Source: Halococcus sediminicola (GTDB lineage Archaea > Halobacteriota > Halobacteria > Halobacteriales > Halococcaceae). From it: a stretch of 64,000 bases of DNA. The notes under the pieces were generated by a model. That model did not search any database. It was not told the DNA's origin and saw only the letters and a list, made by a program, of their open reading frames with translations. The position numbers and the translations under genes are program-made. The stretch lies in assembly GCF_000755245.1 (NCBI RefSeq), contig NZ_BBMP01000022.1:806001-870000 (forward strand), given 5' to 3'. This document shows, in pieces, positions 32,938 to 42,582 of this stretch (position 1 is its first letter; every line of letters begins with the position of its first letter).

Positions 32938-32944
32938 TATTTAC
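32938..32944 (+). promoter_or_regulatory. TATA box for the ccdA leader ORF
   Basis: The element TATTTAC is centred 27 nt before the GTG at 32968, the distance expected for a leaderless start. No comparable box lies 27 nt before ccdA itself (33073). Confidence 0.5.
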
Positions 32945-32967: not shown

Positions 32968-33066
32968 GTGAGCGAGCAGCCCGTCCCAACACCCGATTCC
33001 TCCGACGGCCGATACACGCGAGCGGCCTCGTCGCAACGAGTGATGCCATGCGCAACCGTCGGGTGA
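32968..33066 (+). CDS. Short leader ORF before ccdA
   Basis: A 32-codon ORF (GTG start, VSEQPVPTPDSSDGRYTRAA, ending CATVG) whose start lies where transcription is predicted to begin. It stops 6 nt before the ccdA ATG, and a GGTGA near its end could serve as a Shine-Dalgarno site for ccdA. No family is recognised. Its value may be translational coupling and not the peptide. Confidence 0.4.
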   Translation: MSEQPVPTPDSSDGRYTRAASSQRVMPCATVG

Positions 33067-33072
33067 ACCGAG

Positions 33073-33993
33073 ATGGTCACCATCGACCAGCCCTCGCTGC
33101 TGACAGCCGCCTACGCCGCGGGCGTGTTGATGTTCTTCGCACCGTGTAGCGTCGGCCTGCTCCCCGCATATCTGACCTACTACTTCACTCACGACGCCGA
33201 AACTGACGGCGGAACTGCCACCGCGACGAGCACCAGTTCGGGGGGTTTCGCGCGGCAGCTGCTGCTCGCAAACGGCGTCCTGCTCTTTCTCGCCGGGGCG
33301 ATCCCCCTGTTCTATATGGCGACGGCGGGGATCCGTCTGCTGTTGCCTGGCTATGACCTCGTCGTCCCGCTCGCAAAACTCGGCACGGGAAGCTACCTCC
33401 CGCCCGTGGCGGCGGTGTTCGTCGGCACGGGACTGTCGGTCGCCGCCACCGGCCGGCGCGGGGCGCGGGGGCTTCGCGTCGGCGGTATCGCCACCCTCGG
33501 TATCGTTCTGCTCTACCTACTCGTCGGCGGCGTCGTGCTCGTCGTCGGCGAGTGGATACGACCGTACCTCGCCTCGCTCGAACTGCTCGTCGGCCCGTTG
33601 CTGGTGGCGCTCGGCATCGCCTACTACTCCGGTATCTCGCCGCTGCGCGCCATCGAACTCCCCGAGCGCGGCGAAGTCTCGGATTCGGAGTTCTTCACGT
33701 TCGGCTTGCTCTACGGCGTCGGCAGCCTCGCCTGTAATCTCCCGGTGTTTCTGGGCGTTGTGCTCTCGTCGTTTTTCACCGGCACGTTCCTCTCGGGACT
33801 GGCGGTCTTCGCCGCCTTCGCCGCCGGGATGGGCACGCTGATGATCGGGCTGAGCGTCGTCGCGGGTCTCACCGAAGGATCGCTCTCGCTCGGGCGCTAC
33901 GCCGCGCCGATTCAAACGATTGGGAGCGCCGCGTTCGTTCTCATCGGGCTGTACGTGACGTGGTTCACGCTGCGCTCGTTCGGTTATCTATGA
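33073..33993 (+). CDS. ccdA: Cytochrome c biogenesis / thiol-reductant transporter CcdA
   Basis: A 306-residue membrane protein with about eight helices. The redox-active cysteines are Cys25 (FFAPCSVGLLPAYLTYY) and Cys221 (SLACNLPVFLG), the two that pass electrons across the membrane in CcdA/DsbD. A loop of about 20 residues after helix 1 is Thr/Ser/Ala-rich. It supplies reductant to extracytoplasmic thioredoxin-like proteins; no such partner is adjacent. Confidence 0.9.
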   Translation: MVTIDQPSLLTAAYAAGVLMFFAPCSVGLLPAYLTYYFTHDAETDGGTATATSTSSGGFARQLLLANGVLLFLAGAIPLFYMATAGIRLLLPGYDLVVPLAKLGTGSYLPPVAAVFVGTGLSVAATGRRGARGLRVGGIATLGIVLLYLLVGGVVLVVGEWIRPYLASLELLVGPLLVALGIAYYSGISPLRAIELPERGEVSDSEFFTFGLLYGVGSLACNLPVFLGVVLSSFFTGTFLSGLAVFAAFAAGMGTLMIGLSVVAGLTEGSLSLGRYAAPIQTIGSAAFVLIGLYVTWFTLRSFGYL

Positions 33994-34141
33994 CCGAACG
34001 AGCCGTCGAGCATCGCTCACCGACACCGTCCGTGAAAAAACGATGTGTACTCCCAAATCGTGCACTACTGTCCCACGGTACCGTTCGTATCCGCGAATCT
34101 CAGGGGATAGTACTGGTTCGGTATTGTCTCATTCTCACCAT

Positions 34142-34149
34142 ACTATAGC
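34142..34149 (+). promoter_or_regulatory. TATA box for the DUF2270 leader ORF
   Basis: ACTATAGC is centred about 27 nt upstream of ATG 34174. A second AT-rich element, ctttatc, follows at 34153-34159. Confidence 0.45.
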
Positions 34150-34173
34150 AAGCTTTATCGGACTCAGTCGGGT

Positions 34174-34335
34174 ATGGTCGAGCAACGAGCGAACGAAGGC
34201 GTCGGTCGGACGGCGGTACTGAACGACCGAGCACTCGACCCAACGATGACCACAGACCACGAGCGACACGCGAACCGGCGACGTGACGGCTCAGGGGGAA
34301 CCAGCGACCGACCCACGATGGGGTGGTACTCGTGA
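34174..34335 (+). CDS. Short leader ORF before the DUF2270 gene
   Basis: A 53-codon ORF (MVEQRANEGVGRTAVLNDRA... ending PTMGWYS), rich in Arg and polar residues, starting at the predicted transcription start. Its TGA overlaps the downstream GTG start (GTGA), so the two are probably translationally coupled. No family is recognised. Confidence 0.45.
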   Translation: MVEQRANEGVGRTAVLNDRALDPTMTTDHERHANRRRDGSGGTSDRPTMGWYS

Positions 34336-35042
34336 GCGGAAGCGACTCGTTCGACCCGACCGACGAATCCGCACGTCACATCGGCCGCGGGATGTTCGAA
34401 GAGGAGATGGGTCCCGGCTCGTCGATGGCCCACCTCTATCGTGGCGAGGTCCACCGGATGAAGTTCTGGCGCGAGCGCCTCGACCGCACCACCAACTGGG
34501 CGGTCACCGTCATGGCGGCCATCCTGACGTGGACCTTCACGGGCGGCCATCCCCACTACATCCTCCTCGTGGGGCTGGTGATGCTCACCGTCTTCCTCGT
34601 CGTCGAGGCCCGCCGATACCGGGGCTACGACCTCTGGCGCTCGCGCGTGCGCCTGCTGCAGGAGAACGTGTTTGCGAACGCGCTCGACCCCTCGCGGGAG
34701 ATCGGCGACCCCCACTGGCGGCGCGAACTCAGCGAGGACTACCGCAAACCGAGAATCAAGATCTCCTTCGAGGAGGCGCTCGCCCACCGGCTGCGGCGCA
34801 TCTATCTGCCCCTGATGGCCGTGCTGCTCGTCGCGTGGTTCGTCCGCATCACCGCGTTCATGCCGGGGACCGACTGGCCGGCGAGCGCCGCCATCGGGGC
34901 CGTCCCCGGACTCCTCGTCAGCGCGATCGTCGCCGTCGTTTTCGCCTGTGCGGCGGCGATCGCCTTCCGCCCGCGAACGTGGAAGGCGAACGGCGAACTC
35001 CGACTCACCGACGTCGACGTCTGGGGCGACGCCGAACAGTAA
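34332..35042 (+). CDS. DUF2270 integral membrane protein
   Basis: A 236-residue protein of the DUF2270 family. It has a soluble N-terminal part (HIGRGMFEEEMGPGSSMAHLYRGEVHRM), a helix pair around TTNWAVTVMAAILTWTF and ILLVGLVMLTVFLVV, a conserved cytoplasmic stretch (RRYRGYDLWRSRVRLLQENV, then HWRRELSEDYRKP) and two more helices. The function is unknown. The start is the GTG that overlaps the upstream short ORF; GTG 34323 is an alternative. Confidence 0.82.
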   Translation: MSGSDSFDPTDESARHIGRGMFEEEMGPGSSMAHLYRGEVHRMKFWRERLDRTTNWAVTVMAAILTWTFTGGHPHYILLVGLVMLTVFLVVEARRYRGYDLWRSRVRLLQENVFANALDPSREIGDPHWRRELSEDYRKPRIKISFEEALAHRLRRIYLPLMAVLLVAWFVRITAFMPGTDWPASAAIGAVPGLLVSAIVAVVFACAAAIAFRPRTWKANGELRLTDVDVWGDAEQ

Positions 35043-35073
35043 TCGAAGACCGAACGCCGCGGCCACCGTCCGA

Positions 35074-35082
35074 CAGTATATA
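35074..35082 (+). promoter_or_regulatory. TATA box of the CoA-disulfide-reductase-type gene
   Basis: AGTATATAC is centred about 27 nt before ATG 35106, giving a leaderless transcript. Confidence 0.55.
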
Positions 35083-35105
35083 CCGGTTCACGACGACGCT
35101 CCCAC

Positions 35106-36509
35106 ATGACCTTCGTCGTCATCGGCGGCGATGCCGCCGGCATGTCCGCGGCGAGCAAGGCGAAACGCGATGCGCCCGACACCGAGGTGGTCGTCTTCGA
35201 GGCCGGCGAGTGGGTCTCGTATGGGGCCTGTGGCCTGCCCTACTACATCAAGGGCGAGATCCAGTCGCTCGACGACCTCGTCTCGGTCACGCCCGAGGAG
35301 TTCCGCGAGCAGCGAGACATCGACCTCCGGACGGGCCACGAGGTCGTCGCCATCGACCCGGATGGAAAAACCGTCACGGCTCGTGGGGAGAGCGAGGTCG
35401 TCCAAGAGTACGATCAACTGTTGATCTCGACCGGTGCTGCGGCCGTTGAGCCGCCGATCGACGGGCTCGACAGGGACGGTGTCTATACACTCGGTTCGAT
35501 GGCCGACGGCAAGGACCTCCGCGAGTACGTCTCGCGGGCGCGTACCGAGGGCGATCTCCAGCAGCCGGACAGCGGTCCCGCGTGTGAGTTCCTCGAAACC
35601 TGCAACGGTCCCGTGGGGGTCGTCGGCGGCGGCTACATCGGCATCGAGATGGCCGAGGCGCTCGCCGCCAACGACTTCGAGGTGCATCTCTTCCAGCGCG
35701 GTGATCGGCTGCTGAAATCGTTCAGCGAGGCGACGAGCGAGGCCGTTCTCGACCATCTCCGTGAACAGGACGTGGCGGTGAACCTCGGTGCCGAAGTCGC
35801 GGAACTCGCCGGCGGCGACCGGGTCGAGGCGGTCGTCACCGACGCGGGACGGACGCCCGTCGAGATGGTGCTCGTCGGAACCGGCGTCAGTCCACGGACG
35901 GACCTCGCCGAAGGGGCAGGAATCGAACTGGGCGAGACGGGAGCCATCGCGGCCGACGAGTATCGAGAGACCAGTATTTCGGACGTCTACGCGGCCGGCG
36001 ACTGTGCGGAGGCCGATCACGTCGTCACCGGCGACCCTGTGCACGTGCCGCTCGCGCTGACGGCCAACCGACACGGCCGGGCGGTCGGCCAGACGATTGC
36101 AGGGAACCCGACGAAAGGCGGCCCCGTCGCGGGCACGGCGGCGGTCAAGGCGTTCGACGTCGAGGCCGCTCGTACCGGTATTCTCGACCACGAGACGGCC
36201 CGCGACGCCGGCTTCGACCCCGTTACCGGAACCATCGACGCGAAATCGCGTGCCGGCTACTATCCCGAGGGCGGCACCGTGAGAGTGACGATCACGGCCG
36301 ACCGCGAATCCGGGCGCGTGCTGGGCGGGAGCCTCGTCTCCGAGTACGGCGAGGGGGCCGTCCACCGGAGTCACGCGCTCGTGGGCGCGGTCACGGAGGG
36401 CGTCACGCTCGCCGAACTCTCGAACTACGACCTCGCGTACGCACCGCCGTTCAACACGACGTGGGATCCGGTGCTGACGGCCGCGAAGGTGCTTGATGGC
36501 GACCGATAA
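35106..36509 (+). CDS. FAD-dependent CoA-disulfide reductase / NADH oxidase-type enzyme
   Basis: A 467-residue pyridine-nucleotide disulfide oxidoreductase of the single-cysteine class. The active cysteine is Cys42 in WVSYGACGLPYYIKG. An FAD motif (VVIGGDAAGMSAASKAK) opens the protein, an NAD motif (GVVGGGYIGIEMAEALA) is near residue 178, and VYAAGDCAEADH is the second FAD signature. The C-terminal dimerisation domain is complete. Family members reduce CoA disulfide, CoA persulfide or oxygen, and which applies is open. It stands before the selenium-binding protein gene, which has its own promoter. Confidence 0.87.
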   Translation: MTFVVIGGDAAGMSAASKAKRDAPDTEVVVFEAGEWVSYGACGLPYYIKGEIQSLDDLVSVTPEEFREQRDIDLRTGHEVVAIDPDGKTVTARGESEVVQEYDQLLISTGAAAVEPPIDGLDRDGVYTLGSMADGKDLREYVSRARTEGDLQQPDSGPACEFLETCNGPVGVVGGGYIGIEMAEALAANDFEVHLFQRGDRLLKSFSEATSEAVLDHLREQDVAVNLGAEVAELAGGDRVEAVVTDAGRTPVEMVLVGTGVSPRTDLAEGAGIELGETGAIAADEYRETSISDVYAAGDCAEADHVVTGDPVHVPLALTANRHGRAVGQTIAGNPTKGGPVAGTAAVKAFDVEAARTGILDHETARDAGFDPVTGTIDAKSRAGYYPEGGTVRVTITADRESGRVLGGSLVSEYGEGAVHRSHALVGAVTEGVTLAELSNYDLAYAPPFNTTWDPVLTAAKVLDGDR

Positions 36510-36584
36510 CCGAGATCGATCACGCCGCCCCTCGTGTGTCGGTACCACCAAACACTTATTCGCAGCCCAACAGTAGCGTGTCGG

Positions 36585-37988
36585 ATGAGCACCGACGAGC
36601 CGAGCGACACGGGGACCGCACACGGCCACGAACACCACGACGTCGAGGGACCGGGCTATCCGACGCCGGCGGCGATGCGGACCGAGTCCGGCCGGGAGAA
36701 AACGGCGTTCGTCATGGCACCGCGGGTCGGGATGGACAGTGACAAAGCGGATTTCGTCGGTGTCGTCGATGTCGACCCCGACTCGGAGACGTACAGCGAA
36801 ATCGTCGACACGCTGGAGATGCCGAACCGGGGCGACGAACTCCACCACTTCGGCTGGAACAGCTGTTCGTCGTCGTGTCACACCGAAGGACTCCAGCGCG
36901 ACCACCTGATCGTTCCCGGCCAGCGCTCCTCGCGTATCCACGTTCTCGACGCATCCGACCCACGGAACCCCGAAATCGAGCGCGTCATCGAACCCGAGGA
37001 GGTCTTCGAGTACGACCTCTCGGCACCCCACACCGTCCATTGCGTGCCGGGCGGAAAGATCGTCATCAGCATGCTCGGGAACGCCGACGGCGAACTCCCT
37101 GGAGGATTCCTCCAACTCGACCAGGAGGACTTCTCCATCGACGGCCACTGGGAAGCCGACCGCGGTGACGTCGAGATGCAGTACGACTACTGGTATCAGC
37201 CTCGCCACGGCGTGATGCTCTCGACGGAGTGGGCCGCCCCGAAGACCTACTACCCCGGCTTCGACTTCGACGACGTCGAGGCGGGCAACTACGGCGACAG
37301 CATCCACATCTGGGACTGGGAGTCCAGAGAGCATCGGGAGACGCTGACGTTCGGCGAGGAGGGACTAATCCCGCTGGAGATCCGCATGCTCCACAACCCC
37401 GAGGCGACCGAGGGATATGTGGGAGCGGCGCTCTCGTCCAATATCATCCGTTTTTGGGAGCGAAACGACGGGGCGTGGGACTGGGAGAAAGTCATTGACA
37501 TCGAGGAGCGCGAGCACCCCGACTGGGAGATGCCCGTGCCGGGACTCGTCACAGACACCCTCATCTCGCTCGACGACCAGTACCTGTTCTTCTCGAACTG
37601 GCTGCACGGCGACTGCCGGATGTACGACATCAGCGACACGGGCAACCCGCGGCTCGTGGACCAGATCTGGGCCGGCGGTAACTTCGGCGACCGACAGGAG
37701 GTACAAGGAACGGAGATCCGCGGCGCGCCACAGATGCTCCAACTCAGCCGCGACGGCCGCCGACTCTACTGGACGACCTCGCTGTTCTCGTCGTGGGACA
37801 ACCAGTTCTACCCCGACATCGCCGAGGAAGGCTCGCTGATGATGAAGGCCGACGTCTACCCCGAGAAGGGGCGGATGGAACTCGACGAGGACTTTCTAGT
37901 CGACTTCGGCGACGCACCCGGCGGGCCGGCGCGCGCCCACGAGATCCGCTGGCCGGGCGGCGACTGCACGAGCGACGTCTGGCAGTAG
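36585..37988 (+). CDS. Selenium-binding protein (SBP56) / methanethiol oxidase family
   Basis: A 467-residue protein matching SBP56/SELENBP1, which in bacteria and humans oxidises methanethiol to formaldehyde, sulfide and peroxide. Seen are GYPTPAAMRTESGREKTAF, the cysteine/histidine core HHFGWNSCSSSCHTEG, SAPHTVHCVPGGKIVIS and the C-terminal RAHEIRWPGGDCTSDVWQ. A His-rich N-terminus (HGHEHHD) may bind metal. The TATA-like acttatt is 27 nt before ATG 36585. The stop is followed at once by a ferredoxin start codon. Confidence 0.92.
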   Translation: MSTDEPSDTGTAHGHEHHDVEGPGYPTPAAMRTESGREKTAFVMAPRVGMDSDKADFVGVVDVDPDSETYSEIVDTLEMPNRGDELHHFGWNSCSSSCHTEGLQRDHLIVPGQRSSRIHVLDASDPRNPEIERVIEPEEVFEYDLSAPHTVHCVPGGKIVISMLGNADGELPGGFLQLDQEDFSIDGHWEADRGDVEMQYDYWYQPRHGVMLSTEWAAPKTYYPGFDFDDVEAGNYGDSIHIWDWESREHRETLTFGEEGLIPLEIRMLHNPEATEGYVGAALSSNIIRFWERNDGAWDWEKVIDIEEREHPDWEMPVPGLVTDTLISLDDQYLFFSNWLHGDCRMYDISDTGNPRLVDQIWAGGNFGDRQEVQGTEIRGAPQMLQLSRDGRRLYWTTSLFSSWDNQFYPDIAEEGSLMMKADVYPEKGRMELDEDFLVDFGDAPGGPARAHEIRWPGGDCTSDVWQ

Positions 37989-38306
37989 ATGGCCCACGAG
38001 GTGATGCTCGACTGGCGCGATGGCCCGGACCGAACTATCGAGGTCGATGGCGACGAGACTGTCGTCGAGGCCGCCGAACGGGTCGGGATGAACCTCCCCT
38101 ACGGCTGTCTGTACGGGGTTTGTGGAACCTGTACGGCCCGCCTGCTCGCGGGCAAACTCGTCCACACCGAGCGCCCGCGTGCGCTGAAACCTCGCCACAG
38201 CGAGGCGGGCTATGTCCTGCTCTGTGTGGCGAAACCCCGGTCTGACTGTCGCGTGGAGGTCGGGGCGACGGTGCAGGCCGACCTCGTCTCGAACCCCTGG
38301 AAGTGA
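37989..38306 (+). CDS. [2Fe-2S] ferredoxin
   Basis: A 105-residue plant-type ferredoxin. The cluster cysteines are 40, 45, 48 (CLYGVCGTC) and 79 (YVLLC). It is shorter than the usual haloarchaeal ferredoxin and lacks the acidic N-terminal insertion of about 30 residues typical of that protein. The ATG directly abuts the SBP56 stop codon with no gap, which points to co-translation and a joint role, possibly as electron acceptor for SBP56. Confidence 0.92.
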   Translation: MAHEVMLDWRDGPDRTIEVDGDETVVEAAERVGMNLPYGCLYGVCGTCTARLLAGKLVHTERPRALKPRHSEAGYVLLCVAKPRSDCRVEVGATVQADLVSNPWK

Positions 38307-38321
38307 GGTGGGAAGGGACGA

Positions 38322-40934
38322 TTACCCTGTTCTCGTGAGCAGTCGCTCCCGGATCACGAGCAGACACGGCAACACCGTCATGCACGCGACGAACGCGTAG
38401 ACGATGCTCAGTCCCGTGACGATGCCGAAGCGCTGGAGCGGCGGGGAGAGCGCCAGCGCGAGCACCCCGAAGCCGGCCGCCGTCGTCACCGCACTGCCCA
38501 GCAGCGCGCCGCCGGTACCCGTGAGCGTGGCCGACAGTGCGTCCGCGAGCGAGTCGTGGCGGGCGCGCTCGTCGACGAACCGCTCGCCGACGTGGATGCT
38601 GTAGTCCACGCCCAGCCCGATTGCCAGACTCGTGATCACGACCGTCTCGCTATTAAAGGGGATGTCGAGGGCGGCCATCGTCCCGAGCAGCCACGCGAGC
38701 GCGAGCAGGACGGGCACGATGGTCACCACGCCTAGTCCCGGCGCCCGGCTTCGCCACCAGTACAGCCCGACGAGCAGCGCGAGGATGACCCCGAGCGTGA
38801 TGGCGAAGCCCTCGACGAGCGTCTCGAACAGCGCGCTCTGGACGACCGCGGTGGTGACCGGCCCGCCAGTCGCGATGGCCGTCACCGGCGCGTTCGCTTC
38901 GACCGTCGCGGCGACTCCTCGCACGTCCTCCGCGACCGACTGGGACGAGGCGTTGCCCTGCACGCCGACCGTGAGCCGGGCGGACTCGTACGAGCCGTCG
39001 TCTGCCCGGTAGAGCACCGAGGATGCCTGCTCGGGAGCGGCGTCGAACAGCAGGTCGTAGACCGCCGCGACGTCCCTGTCGGGAAGCCCGTCGCCATCGA
39101 TGTCGCGCGCCTCGACCGCATCGGCGACCGTCCCGTTCTCGGCGGCGACGCTCCGGAGGACGGATGCCGGACTCTCGATGGCGGCCCGTCCGTCCCCGCC
39201 GACGACGATTGTTCCGCTCCCGTTGGCGTCCCGAGTCACGTCGTCGGCCGCGGTGAGCAGCGCCGGCGCGGTCATGTTCCCCTCTATCAGAATCTGTCCC
39301 TCCGAATCCTGTCCGCGCTGGCGGAAGTTGTCGCTCAGGTAGTCGAGGTCATCGCTCACGTCGTAGTCGCCCGGGGCGAGCGGTCCCGGCAGCGAGTCCA
39401 TCCACGCCGGCGCGTCTTGGGGCAGGAAGTCGGCCTGATTGAACTCCGTGTCGATGCCGGTCGCGCCGTACGCGCCCCCGGCGGCGAGCACCACCGCGAC
39501 GACGATGACGACGATGGGCGCTCGCCGGGCGAGCCGGGCGGCCCCCGAGAGAGCGCCGTTCAGCCAGCCCGCATCGACGCCGACGGCGCTCCTCTTCCGG
39601 GTGTGGCCACGGCGGTCGAGGAGGCGTTCGAGTTCGAGTTTGAGCGCCGGCACGAGCGCCGCGAACACGACGAAGATGGCGACGATGCCGACGCCGCTCA
39701 GAATCGCGAAATCCTGTATCGACTCTAGCGGGCTGACGTAGTTCGAGAAGAAGCCGACGGCCGTCGAGAACGCGGCGGTGGCCAGCGCGAGGACGACGCC
39801 GGCGAGTCCGAGGCGCATCGCGGTTGTGGGATCGCGCCGACCCGTGGACTCACGGTCGGTGTCGAGGGACCCCTCACGCGCCTCGCGGTAGCGCATGACG
39901 ACGTGCAGCGAGTAGTCGATGCTCAGGCCGATGAGCAGGAATGGCACGGCGATGAGCGTCGAGTTCGACGGGATTCCGAGCCAGCCCTGAACGCCGGCGT
40001 ACCAGACGAGCACGATCCCGACCCCGAAGAGGCTCACGAGAACGTCGAGGAGGTCGCGGTAGGCAATGGAAAGAACGACGAGCAGGAGGACGAGCGCGAC
40101 CGGTGTGATGACGATGAAACTGTCGCCGATGGCCTGTGAGGACTCCTCGTCGATGATGCCCTGCCCGAAGACGAACCCGTCGGTGAAACGGTTCTCGACC
40201 AGCGAATCGATGGCCACCTGCGCGTCGTTGACCTCCTCGTCGGTCGTTCCCGACCCGCTCGGACTTTTCTGGAAGACGAGGGTGGTTCGCGCGTCGGCCT
40301 GCGTCGTTCCCGGCTCGTACTCCGATGGCAGGAACTCGGCGGGGTCGCTGCCCGGCACGGACGCCTCCGGGTCGAGGATGCGGCTCAGATACGTCTCGAC
40401 TTGCTCGTCCGACCGCGATTCGAGGGCGGCGATCTGCTGGTCGAGCGTCGGTGCTGCCGGTTGGCTCTGTCCTGGGGCCGACGTGTCGTTCGCCCCCGTC
40501 GCACGGGAGTCGGAACCCGAGTCGTCGGCGCGCTCGCTCTGCTGGTGGGCGTATGCGACGTTCGCCACCACGTTCTCGATGCCGATGGCTCCCGTTCCTT
40601 CACGGAGCGTCGCGTTGATCGACTCGTTCTCGTGGAGTGCTTTCTGTAGGCGGAGGCTCTTTAGGAGCGACTGTCGCGTGAGGACGTTTCCTCCTTCGTT
40701 CCTGACGACGACCTGCGCGACCACCGCGTCGTCGGTCTCGTAGGTCGCGTCGATCTGGTCGAGTGCGGCTTGTTCCGGGGAATCGATGCCGGCATCGCCG
40801 ATGCCCGCCTCCCCGGTGGTGCCGACGACCGCGCCCGCGCCGACGGCGGCGGAGACGACGAGCAACAGCGCGATTATCAGCCGGCTCCGCGAGACGAGGG
40901 AATCCGCGTACCGAGAGGAGAGGTCGCGTTTCAT
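38322..40934 (-). CDS. RND/MMPL-family transporter (patched-like)
   Basis: An 870-residue protein with the duplicated RND plan: one N-terminal helix, a large outer loop, then a five-helix block (containing GLSIDYSLHVVMRYREAREG), repeated in the second half (LGVDYSIHVGERFVDERA). The conserved sterol-sensing/MMPL motif is seen in both halves. It probably exports lipids or hydrophobic compounds, as in HpnN/MmpL relatives. The ATG overlaps the stop of a 24-codon ORF by ATGA. Confidence 0.88.
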   Translation of the reverse strand: MKRDLSSRYADSLVSRSRLIIALLLVVSAAVGAGAVVGTTGEAGIGDAGIDSPEQAALDQIDATYETDDAVVAQVVVRNEGGNVLTRQSLLKSLRLQKALHENESINATLREGTGAIGIENVVANVAYAHQQSERADDSGSDSRATGANDTSAPGQSQPAAPTLDQQIAALESRSDEQVETYLSRILDPEASVPGSDPAEFLPSEYEPGTTQADARTTLVFQKSPSGSGTTDEEVNDAQVAIDSLVENRFTDGFVFGQGIIDEESSQAIGDSFIVITPVALVLLLVVLSIAYRDLLDVLVSLFGVGIVLVWYAGVQGWLGIPSNSTLIAVPFLLIGLSIDYSLHVVMRYREAREGSLDTDRESTGRRDPTTAMRLGLAGVVLALATAAFSTAVGFFSNYVSPLESIQDFAILSGVGIVAIFVVFAALVPALKLELERLLDRRGHTRKRSAVGVDAGWLNGALSGAARLARRAPIVVIVVAVVLAAGGAYGATGIDTEFNQADFLPQDAPAWMDSLPGPLAPGDYDVSDDLDYLSDNFRQRGQDSEGQILIEGNMTAPALLTAADDVTRDANGSGTIVVGGDGRAAIESPASVLRSVAAENGTVADAVEARDIDGDGLPDRDVAAVYDLLFDAAPEQASSVLYRADDGSYESARLTVGVQGNASSQSVAEDVRGVAATVEANAPVTAIATGGPVTTAVVQSALFETLVEGFAITLGVILALLVGLYWWRSRAPGLGVVTIVPVLLALAWLLGTMAALDIPFNSETVVITSLAIGLGVDYSIHVGERFVDERARHDSLADALSATLTGTGGALLGSAVTTAAGFGVLALALSPPLQRFGIVTGLSIVYAFVACMTVLPCLLVIRERLLTRTG

Positions 40935-41005
40935 CGGCTATCGCCTTCTCGAACCGGCGCGGCGACGAATGCACGGCGACTGACTGCTGGCGGGGAACCG
41001 TTCAT
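40931..41005 (-). CDS. Short leader ORF before the RND transporter gene
   Basis: A 24-codon ORF (MNGSPPAVSRRAFVAAPVRE, ending GDSR) whose ATG lies 27 nt after the centre of a TATA-like ctctttatc. Its TGA overlaps the RND ATG in the sequence ATGA. No TATA element lies 27 nt before the RND start itself, so the transporter is probably translated by coupling. Confidence 0.45.
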   Translation of the reverse strand: MNGSPPAVSRRAFVAAPVREGDSR

Positions 41006-41027
41006 GAACCCCTCTCCGATGGCGGGT

Positions 41028-41037
41028 GATAAAGAGC
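41028..41037 (-). promoter_or_regulatory. TATA box for the RND leader ORF
   Basis: The coding-strand sequence CTCTTTATCA is centred about 27 nt before the ATG at 41005. Confidence 0.5.
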
Positions 41038-41118
41038 GATGGAGGGTTCCCAGAACGTGAGACAACCGGGCGTCGGCCGAGTCACGACTGGAGGACGAAC
41101 GTTGGCGAGTACGCGGGT

Positions 41119-41394
41119 CTACGTTCGGTAGAGACCGATAATCATGACGCCGAACCCGGCACAGATGATCACGCTTTCGAGAACCATGCCGAGAGTCACC
41201 GAAGCGCCGCCGAGGTGGTGGAACGCGCCAACGAGAACCGTTCCGAGGGTGATGACCGCCAGCCCCACCGCGAAATACTGGAGTCCCGACATCCGGGTCC
41301 GACGGTAGGCTCGGTACGCCATCAGAGAGACGATACCGCCGAGGACGAGCGCGAGGACTTTGACGACGACCAGCAGCGCGACGAGCGCCTCCAT
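41119..41394 (-). CDS. Small three-helix membrane protein (DUF7521-like)
   Basis: A 91-residue membrane protein with three hydrophobic segments (VVVKVLALVLGGIVSLMAY, FAVGLAVITLGTVLVGAF, VLESVIICAGFGVMIIGLY) and a short basic loop RAYRRTR after the first. Such proteins are commonly encoded beside a winged-helix regulator in haloarchaea and fit DUF7521 as I recall it. The ATG overlaps the regulator's TGA by one base (TGATG). Confidence 0.7.
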   Translation of the reverse strand: MEALVALLVVVKVLALVLGGIVSLMAYRAYRRTRMSGLQYFAVGLAVITLGTVLVGAFHHLGGASVTLGMVLESVIICAGFGVMIIGLYRT

Positions 41395-41849
41395 CACGAC
41401 TCCTCCCGCATCGCCGACCAGAACGTGGCCAGCCGGTCCTCCGCGTCGGTCTCCGGGCGAGTCACTCTCATGGTGAACTCACCGGTGTCGTCGATGCCGA
41501 TGGCGATCTCGGAGAAATCCCGTTCGTAGAGCGTGACGTTCGGCCCGTCGCGCCGGACCTCCGTGTACTCCCGGACGAGCCTCGATTCGCGGAGCAGTTC
41601 GAGCTTTCGATAGACGGTCGAACTGGACAGTCCACACTCCTCGTGGAGTTCGCTCGCGGATTTCGGGCTGTCCAGCAGCGCGAGTATCGCCCGGCAGTTG
41701 TCGTCGTCGAGCGACGCCAACACCGCCGGAAGCGGGGGATCATCGGGTTCGTCGGACGACCATCGAGCCATGTCGGTAGCGGAGTCCGTCGAACCGGTGT
41801 TCGACGGTATCAGTGATAGTCGGTTCGAACCGATGCGCTGCTCGTTCAT
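41394..41849 (-). CDS. Winged helix-turn-helix transcriptional regulator
   Basis: A 151-residue regulator (125 if started at ATG 41771). The DNA-binding part is clear: LASLDDDNCRAILALLDSPK, ELHEECGLSSSTVYRKLELL with the recognition helix SSSTVYRKL, then a wing (EYTEVRRDGPNVTLYER) and an acidic tail. The inducer is unknown. The longer start is chosen because the TATA box lying inside an inverted repeat would place transcription about 10 nt before 41849. It is encoded as a tight pair with the small membrane protein, suggesting a sensor/regulator couple. Confidence 0.82.
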   Translation of the reverse strand: MNEQRIGSNRLSLIPSNTGSTDSATDMARWSSDEPDDPPLPAVLASLDDDNCRAILALLDSPKSASELHEECGLSSSTVYRKLELLRESRLVREYTEVRRDGPNVTLYERDFSEIAIGIDDTGEFTMRVTRPETDAEDRLATFWSAMREES

Positions 41850-41877
41850 CTCCTGCTCTACGTGATATTTTCGGTGG

Positions 41878-41896
41878 CGGGAGTATATGGCTCCCG
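41878..41896 (-). promoter_or_regulatory. Inverted repeat enclosing a TATA-like box
   Basis: Arms CGGGAG (41878-41883) and CTCCCG (41891-41896) are perfect complements, separated by the 7-nt spacer TATATGG. The TATA-like element is therefore flanked by operator-like arms, about 37 nt before ATG 41849, a layout that suits repression, perhaps autoregulation, of the winged-helix gene. Confidence 0.5.
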
Positions 41897-41993
41897 GTCG
41901 TTCCCCGATATTGGGAATGGCAAGACCGGCGTTGCCGTGCGGTCTGTCGTCGCTCACCTGGTACTCCCACGCTCTGGGACACCTCCAGCGACG

Positions 41994-42000
41994 TTTATAG
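41994..42000 (+). promoter_or_regulatory. TATA box for the CopD-like leader ORF
   Basis: TTTATAG is centred 26 nt before ATG 42023. Confidence 0.5.
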
Positions 42001-42022
42001 CCCGAGCACGAACGTCCCGGTG

Positions 42023-42148
42023 ATGACACGCCGACCCATTGATCGAGCCACGGCGGGTGGTTTCGAGCGCACGACCGGAATCGACACGGTACGGGCGGGC
42101 GAACGCACGAGAACGAACCCGTCGGCGAGCACGGGGGTTCGTCGATGA
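42023..42148 (+). CDS. Short leader ORF before the CopD-like gene
   Basis: A 41-codon Arg/Thr-rich ORF (MTRRPIDRATAGGFERTTGI ... STGVRR) starting at the predicted transcription start. Its TGA overlaps the next gene's ATG (ATGA). No family is recognised. Confidence 0.45.
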   Translation: MTRRPIDRATAGGFERTTGIDTVRAGERTRTNPSASTGVRR

Positions 42149-42582
42149 CGAGCGTGCTCGACGTCGTCATGACCGTCCATACGATGTTCGCCGCGCTCTG
42201 GACGGGCGGCACGCTCGTGGTCGCCGGTGCCGTCATCCCGGCGGCGCGCAGCGAGGCGCTCGACAGGGACGGACTGACCCTCATCGCACGACGATTCGGG
42301 TATCTGACGGCCGCCTCGGTTCTGCTACTGCTGTTCAGCGGCGGGCATCTCGCCGGGACGCTCTACACGGCCGAAACGCTCCAATCGACCGGGCGCGGAC
42401 ATCTCGTGCTGGCGATGGTCGGTCTCTGGCTCGTCCTCGCGGTCGTGCTCTTCGTCGGCTTCCGCCGACTGACTGGTGACGAATCGAAATCGGCGGTGGC
42501 GGCAGCGACGAGCGCGCGACCGTGGTTTCTCGGCGCGAGCGCCGTCTCGATCGCGCTGCTCGTCGTCGCCGGTCTCCTGTGA
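42145..42582 (+). CDS. CopD-like four-helix membrane protein
   Basis: A 145-residue membrane protein with four helices: VHTMFAALWTGGTLVVAGAV, YLTAASVLLLLFSGGHLAG, LVLAMVGLWLVLAVVLFVGF and the last near the C-terminus. The first helix with its His and the second with GGHLAG resemble the CopD/copper-resistance D fold. A transport or haem-binding role is possible but not shown. It is divergent from the winged-helix gene. Confidence 0.7.
   Translation: MTSVLDVVMTVHTMFAALWTGGTLVVAGAVIPAARSEALDRDGLTLIARRFGYLTAASVLLLLFSGGHLAGTLYTAETLQSTGRGHLVLAMVGLWLVLAVVLFVGFRRLTGDESKSAVAAATSARPWFLGASAVSIALLVVAGLL

Follow-up and report, generated by a model that had tools for sequence, protein, structure and literature searches.

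Short open reading frames as probable ribosome launchers in front of membrane protein genes in Halococcus and other Halobacteria

Leader ORFs in the Halococcus window

Four short open reading frames (ORFs) lie directly in front of genes for multi-pass membrane proteins in the analysed window, a stretch of 64,000 nucleotides from a Halococcus genome of 3.76 Mb (contig C22, positions 806001-870000). Such leaders very probably represent leaderless launcher ORFs that load ribosomes at their own start codon and hand them on to the following gene by termination-reinitiation. Within the window this reading is put forward firmly for the leaders of an RND/MMPL family transporter gene and of a CopD-like gene, and probably also applies to the leader of a ccdA-like gene, which has a GTG start. 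The leader of a DUF2270 gene is, as far as its promoter tells, a coupled but leadered small ORF. The promoter spacing, the conservation of the frame, the near-neutral peptide, the motif at the junction, the genome-wide excess and the membrane bias are established from the sequence alone.

The coordinates of the four leaders, their lengths (32, 53, 24 and 41 codons), the three ATGA/GTGA overlaps and the gap of 6 nt before the ccdA-like gene were all exact in the original prediction. The multi-pass membrane proteins which it had expected behind the leaders were recovered as well: all four products are hydrophobic and multi-pass, with firm Pfam matches for DUF2270 and MMPL. The leaders, their promoters and their genes are as follows (positions within the window):

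32938..32943, forward strand: TATA-like element TATTTA, promoter of the ccdA leader (matrix score 6.9 at -37 from the GTG at 32968)
32968..33066, forward strand: leader ORF 1 (GTG, 32 codons), stop 6 nt before the ccdA-like gene
33073..33993, forward strand: gene for a CcdA-like multi-pass membrane protein, 306 aa (weak CcdA match among PDB sequences, E 0.094; no Pfam and no NCBIfam match)
34154..34159, forward strand: conserved TATA box TTTATC of the DUF2270 transcript (9.4; predicted transcription start about 34182-34184)
34174..34335, forward strand: leader ORF 2 as first reported, 53 codons, of which the first 24 probably lie outside the functional leader
34246..34335, forward strand: conserved DUF2270 leader, MTTDHERHA..., 29 codons, GTGA overlap with DUF2270
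34332..35042, forward strand: gene for a DUF2270 integral membrane protein (PF10028, E 3e-71)
38322..40934, reverse strand: gene for an RND/MMPL family transporter, 870 aa (PF03176, E 2e-33)
40931..41005, reverse strand: leader ORF 3 (ATG, 24 codons), ATGA overlap with the RND gene; layout shared by every close Halococcus homologue and present across Halobacteria
41028..41033, reverse strand: TATA box TTTATC, promoter of the RND leader (4.5 at -37; kept in relatives)
41994..41999, forward strand: TATA box TTTATA, promoter of the CopD leader (8.6 at -36)
42023..42148, forward strand: leader ORF 4 (ATG, 41 codons), ATGA overlap with the CopD-like gene
42145..42582, forward strand: gene for a CopD-like multi-pass membrane protein, 145 aa (PF05425, E 2.5e-6, score 28.2, below the cut-off of 32.1)

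According to the proposed mechanism, transcription would start at or just 5' of the start codon of the leader, where the ribosome would load in the leaderless mode and translate a short and dispensable peptide. It would then terminate on the ATGA or GTGA, or a few nucleotides before the gene, and reinitiate on the transporter gene, which would depend on the leader and have no start signal of its own able to work from a 5' untranslated region (UTR). Selection would hold the start, the frame, its stop-free reading and the junction, not the peptide, and the layout would be preferred for multi-pass membrane proteins. That the leaders recruit ribosomes and that the downstream gene is translated by termination-reinitiation had been predicted originally; a frame that is kept while the peptide is not, an operon-like Shine-Dalgarno (SD)-like motif and a direct leaderless start of the RND gene in two Natrialba loci all argue for it. 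The control function that had been considered possible receives no support in its peptide-based form: the peptides drift, with a ratio of nonsynonymous to synonymous change (pN/pS) near 1.

Promoter spacing

The promoter matrix, which was learned by expectation maximisation from the starts of the 978 genes called on C22, consists of the B recognition element (BRE) and the TATA box and peaks sharply 36-38 nt 5' of the start codon, the signature of leaderless transcripts. Depending on the cut-off, about 41-47% of the first genes on C22 carry a leaderless promoter signal. The leaders at 32968, 41005 (reverse strand) and 42023 have their promoters at -37, -37 and -36 (scores 6.9, 4.5 and 8.6). The matrix scan detected no promoter signal at leaderless spacing for the ccdA-like, DUF2270, RND and CopD-like genes themselves, in agreement with the earlier statement that none of the four has a TATA box at this distance.

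Leaderless spacing had been claimed for all four leaders, and it holds for those of ccdA, RND and CopD and fails for the one at 34174. There the strong match TTTATC begins 27 nt upstream, and the matrix score at -36 to -38 is 2.4 at most. As this TATA box lies too close, the predicted transcription start falls about 10 nt inside the claimed ORF. The same box scores 9.9-11.0 at the same place in the genomes G003, G004 and G009; the relatives L035, L036 and L039 keep it and have no ATG at the equivalent of 34174. In these relatives the leader (MTTNHERHA..., 29 codons) begins at the position matching 34246, about 60 nt inside the predicted transcript, and overlaps the DUF2270 gene by GTGA. Judged by its promoter, the DUF2270 leader had been assigned the wrong start and is not leaderless.

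The ccdA leader represents the weakest leaderless case because it starts with GTG and because only one other copy, L015 in G004, has the layout; in this copy the same TATA-like element precedes a GTGAGCG leader.

Conservation of the RND leader across Halobacteria

For the RND gene 53 loci were fetched across Halobacteria and read alongside the Halococcus loci; the sequences compared here are related, and the counts are not numbers of independent events. The loci were anchored by the promoter alone, either by inverted repeat and TATA box (operator-anchored) or by the matrix, and the first start codon was taken. The ORF beginning there ends -4 to +7 nt from the RND start in 22/24 operator-anchored and 24/28 matrix-anchored loci, as against 1 and 12, and 3 and 5, respectively, in the other two frames. 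In a set of 48 RND leaders the leader frame is open, whereas 54 and 47 stops occur in the two alternative frames; these leaders were selected as open, and the promoter-anchored count is the unbiased main count. Their length varies from 11 to 54 codons, and in Natronorubrum (11, 33 and 37 codons) close relatives differ in leader length without loss of the frame.

The peptide appears to drift. Substitutions are spread almost evenly over the three codon positions (169, 139 and 143), and pN/pS reaches 0.92 and 0.77 in two alignable groups, compared to 0.36 and 0.16 where the RND gene begins. The peptides are rich in arginine (K+R 17% versus 9% in the proteome), unlike the acidic proteins of haloarchaea. 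Leu and Lys are rarer and Asp is commoner in the peptides of the 48 loci than base composition predicts, kinship being ignored; perhaps this reflects a weak constraint on codons or peptide.

In the Natrialba loci L098 and L103 the first ATG behind the same TATA box is the RND start itself, which makes RND directly leaderless. By the position of their promoters, these two loci are a natural swap of the launcher for a direct leaderless start. A third locus, L092, has likewise no leader, and its operator and TATA box put RND at or within a few nucleotides of the leaderless position. At L104, L107, L108, L110, L115 and L125 another shared promoter block (about ATAGTAGATATCTACAAACACTTAA) was observed 5' of the RND leader; leaders behind this block have a GTG start and lie at a greater distance from the TATA box. 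The plasmid annotation of Natrinema zhouii and Haloferax larsenii, in a table known to be incomplete, contains no gene at the RND leader.

Leaders of other membrane protein genes

The CopD leader is kept with 41-44 codons and the ATGA overlap in 9 Halococcus copies, and its layout also occurs in Saliphagus (L074) and Halocatena (L077). Comparison of the genome portions covered by the survey described below gave only 162 reciprocal orthologue pairs, too few for a general test of conservation, and three cases that had come to light only in the survey were therefore compared by genus searches. All three, which from their sequences we take to be a PiT phosphate permease, a BASS-type transporter and an MFS transporter, keep the leader with its frame and junction throughout the genus. 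The BASS leaders keep their frame through length changes (16, 19, 29 and 32 codons), and a PiT homologue in Halostella also has a leader. The values of pN/pS are 0.90 for CopD, 1.26 for PiT, 1.17 for MFS and 0.61 for BASS. Frame-breaking indels, which the original prediction had named as a test, were sought in relatives and none was detected in the RND, CopD, PiT, BASS and MFS leaders; a few homologues are without the layout altogether. For RND, CopD, PiT and MFS it is thus the linkage of leader and gene that is conserved and not the peptide, as in the mycobacterial leaders discussed below.

The junction between leader and gene

The distances between leader and gene in the window (-4, -4, -4 and +6 nt) lie within the limit for haloarchaeal termination-reinitiation, an overlap or a gap of up to about 10 nt. 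An SD-like 4-mer occurs in the last 15 nt before RND in 32/37 sequences less than 60% alike, compared to 3 and 7 in neighbouring control windows. Across two genomes the share of genes with such a 4-mer before the start is 16% for leaderless genes, 21% for other first genes, 44% for genes behind leader ORFs and 60% for operon-internal overlapping genes; in the window the 4-mers are present at the ccdA and DUF2270 junctions and absent from those of RND and CopD. The published contribution of the SD-like motif to haloarchaeal termination-reinitiation differs from pair to pair. In Haloferax an SD motif does not support de novo initiation within 5' UTRs, and AUG is required for leaderless initiation (PMC3986360). 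All nine of the nine overlapping or close gene pairs tested in Haloferax volcanii were strictly coupled (PMC6728339). Since SD motifs are inactive for de novo starts in UTRs and overlapping pairs are strictly coupled, the SD-like motif at the junction points to termination-reinitiation.

Genome-wide excess and membrane bias

The survey covered C22 and 1.6 of the 2.7 Mb of G004, two Halococcus genomes, with 2.57 Mb and 2534 genes altogether; its gene caller and its count of transmembrane (TM) segments were simple and ad hoc. The RTGA overlap, which marks mycobacterial-type leaders and is carried by leaders 2-4 of the window, is over-represented: upstream ATGs linked to a promoter end in a -4 or -1 overlap in 21 of 69 cases, compared to 145 of 1616 unlinked ones (p 9e-7). 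No such enrichment was found for GTG leaders in the same 2.57 Mb (2/42 promoter-linked, 230/2678 unlinked). This lack, together with the 89% of ATG among leaderless gene starts in the two genomes, agrees with the AUG requirement of leaderless initiation.

The link to membrane proteins seen in the four original cases extends to the whole survey. At least three TM segments are predicted for 18 of 48 genes behind leaders and for 11 of the 24 (46%) in the ATG overlap class, compared to 76/573 leaderless genes (13%) and 32/189 leadered genes without a leader ORF. After removal of the discovery genes and duplicates the share is 14/42, and 13/31 for ATG leaders (p 1.4e-4 versus leaderless genes); it climbs with a stricter promoter score, to 7/9 at a score of at least 8. 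Conversely, promoter-linked ATGs end in an overlap in 11/22 cases before genes with at least three TM segments (unlinked 32/276) and in 13/68 cases before other genes (unlinked 127/1444). The RND loci gave two further leader genes, of which L107 is a homologue of PiT, a sample too small for an independent membrane test.

Candidate causes of the membrane preference are a control of dose in membrane insertion and descent from operon coupling as in ccdA. The idea of the leader as an unstructured landing site receives no support, since RNA folding shows leader 5' ends to be no less structured than those of leaderless genes. Folding at the start likewise revealed no more structure in main genes behind leaders than in leaderless genes, and N-terminal hydropathy did not differ between leader-borne and leaderless membrane genes.

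Alternative explanations

In a GC-rich genome the leaders might simply be chance ORFs within ordinary 5' UTRs, with the ribosome starting directly on the main gene. Stop codons are scarce in GC-rich DNA, and upstream ATGs that are not linked to a promoter lead to an overlap as well in about 9% of cases. In both RND and CopD the start codon is followed by an A, so that ATGA comes free and the evidence lies in the frame. Further points weigh against launcher ORFs: the RND and CopD junctions of the window have no SD-like 4-mer, the GTG start of the ccdA leader is reported to be non-functional in leaderless initiation, the matrix scores of the operator-type RND promoters are low (about 0.5-5), one RND copy (L122) and two CopD copies (L006, L007) are without the layout, and the membrane share of 46% rests on 24-26 genes and an ad hoc gene caller. 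Nevertheless, chance appears very improbable as an explanation, given that the ORF ends at the gene in 46/52 promoter-anchored RND loci compared to 1, 3, 5 and 12 in shifted frames, that promoter-linked overlaps are in three- to four-fold excess genome-wide, that length changes preserve the frame and that the SD-like motif is confined to the junction. Sensor or attenuator peptides exerting sequence-specific control, like the leaders of amino-acid operons, would suit the size of the leaders and their position before transporters, and the DUF2270 leader keeps an N-terminal MTT-x-HE motif. Yet the leader peptides of orthologous genes are unrelated, differ in length (11-54 codons) and have a pN/pS near 1, and a conserved or residue-enriched peptide tied to the substrate of the operon was not found among them, which makes this explanation highly unlikely.

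Just as little probability is given to the leaders being true small genes, with products that work together with the membrane protein. The survey does contain small genes with a coupled next gene, for instance, in G004, what we take from the sequences to be a SecE-like ORF before a NusG-like gene, and the DUF2270 leader is partly conserved. Against this stand the missing peptide conservation of the RND, CopD, PiT and MFS leaders, their arginine-rich composition and the lack of a gene at this place in the incomplete plasmid annotation. An origin from upstream operon genes, in which a new promoter on a coupled gene would require a short ORF to keep the coupling, would complement the launcher function rather than replace it. 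Most relatives have, in front of the ccdA-like gene, an upstream gene that closes with CRVS*/CRVN* right at the ccdA start, and the tail of this sequence is retained in the window and in L015 behind the new promoter and leader; in the operon copies L037-L046 DUF2270 follows a gene, and a small ORF similar to its leader lies inside the operon. On the other hand, the RND, CopD, PiT and BASS leaders mostly have promoters of their own and show no remains of an ancestral gene, and as a general origin operon remnants seem rather unlikely, though far less so than the three explanations above.

The end of the ccdA leader (33040-33075, CGGGTGAAC...) matches the end of the upstream operon gene (compare L015-L017 and L023-L025). 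In the window the frame that closes at the leader end has changed relative to the CRVS*/CRVN* gene of the relatives.

Regulator and operators between the RND and CopD genes

The region between the RND and CopD leaders contains the following features:

41048..41062, reverse strand: inverted repeat TCTCACGTTCTGGGA, probable operator 5' of the RND TATA box, at the same place in 26 RND loci
41119..41397, reverse strand: gene for a DUF7521 small membrane protein (PF24365, E 2e-25)
41394..41957, reverse strand: gene for a winged-helix/ArsR-like regulator, start uncertain (HTH_20, E 7e-11; ArsR/SmtB-like match below cut-off)
41965..41979, forward strand: inverted repeat TCCCACGCTCTGGGA, probable operator 5' of the TATA box of the CopD leader

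The CopD, HTH, DUF7521 and MMPL genes form a conserved divergent module. Directly 5' of the TATA box at both the RND and the CopD leader promoters lies the inverted repeat TCCCACGNTCTGGGA, which is kept in relatives and in many Halobacteria and of which no exact copy was detected elsewhere on C22. The winged-helix regulator whose gene lies between RND and CopD probably has this repeat as its operator.

Significance and comparison with known systems

For one class of genes, launcher ORFs would offer a concrete answer to how haloarchaeal mRNAs are translated that are neither leaderless at the gene nor equipped with a working SD motif, and they would explain apparently long 5' UTRs before transporters. 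They also call for caution in annotation, as ORFs of 10-60 codons need not encode functional peptides. We tentatively suggest that launcher ORFs constitute a distinct and widespread haloarchaeal mode of initiation, mainly for multi-pass membrane transporters and class-wide at some genes, in which the coupled start might set the dose or timing of the membrane protein, unlike direct leaderless starts. The membrane bias, if true in more genomes, would newly connect the class of a protein with the way in which its translation is initiated. Both the deep conservation of the layout in archaea and its membrane bias appear to be new; a recurring archaeal layout of this kind was not found described in the open-licence literature.

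The first ORF of a bicistronic design uses ordinary SD initiation. In such designs, which are used in expression vectors, a short ORF delivers ribosomes to a coupled gene (review PMC12548453); launcher ORFs share this delivery, whereas the bicistronic design is engineered. Upstream ORFs (uORFs) of 15-31 codons have been reported in UTRs of 150-250 nt in Haloferax volcanii, several of them before transport genes (Babski et al. 2016, PMC4983044, Table 2). Like these, the leaders described here are small ORFs between the transcription start and a normal gene, but they are shorter-range and arginine-rich, whereas the low isoelectric points of the uORFs were read as a sign of functional peptides; the parts of that paper considered here do not discuss an overlap layout or a membrane bias.

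The gene pairs of Haloferax volcanii studied by Huber et al. (2019, PMC6728339) have a 4-nt or 1-nt overlap or a short gap and an SD-like motif ending the upstream ORF, with no de novo start downstream. The leaders resemble them in the overlap or short gap and, at most of the divergent RND junctions and at two of the four junctions in the window, in an SD-like motif before the downstream start; the upstream partners there are functional genes (urease, ribosomal proteins and others), whereas here they are ORFs of 10-60 codons without a conserved product.

The closest parallel is provided by the leaderless 'coupled' small ORFs of mycobacteria, which overlap the next gene by RTGA, are over-represented and show conserved linkage without conservation of the small protein (Shell et al. 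2015, PMC4633059, Fig. 6B). Both share the short ORF at a predicted leaderless start, the RTGA overlap, the genome-wide excess and a linkage that is conserved without the peptide. The leaders described here differ in being archaeal (Halobacteria), in being kept across most of a class for one gene family, in their bias towards multi-pass membrane proteins and in being known from sequence. Mycobacteria and haloarchaea, both of them rich in leaderless mRNAs, would have arrived at the same solution.

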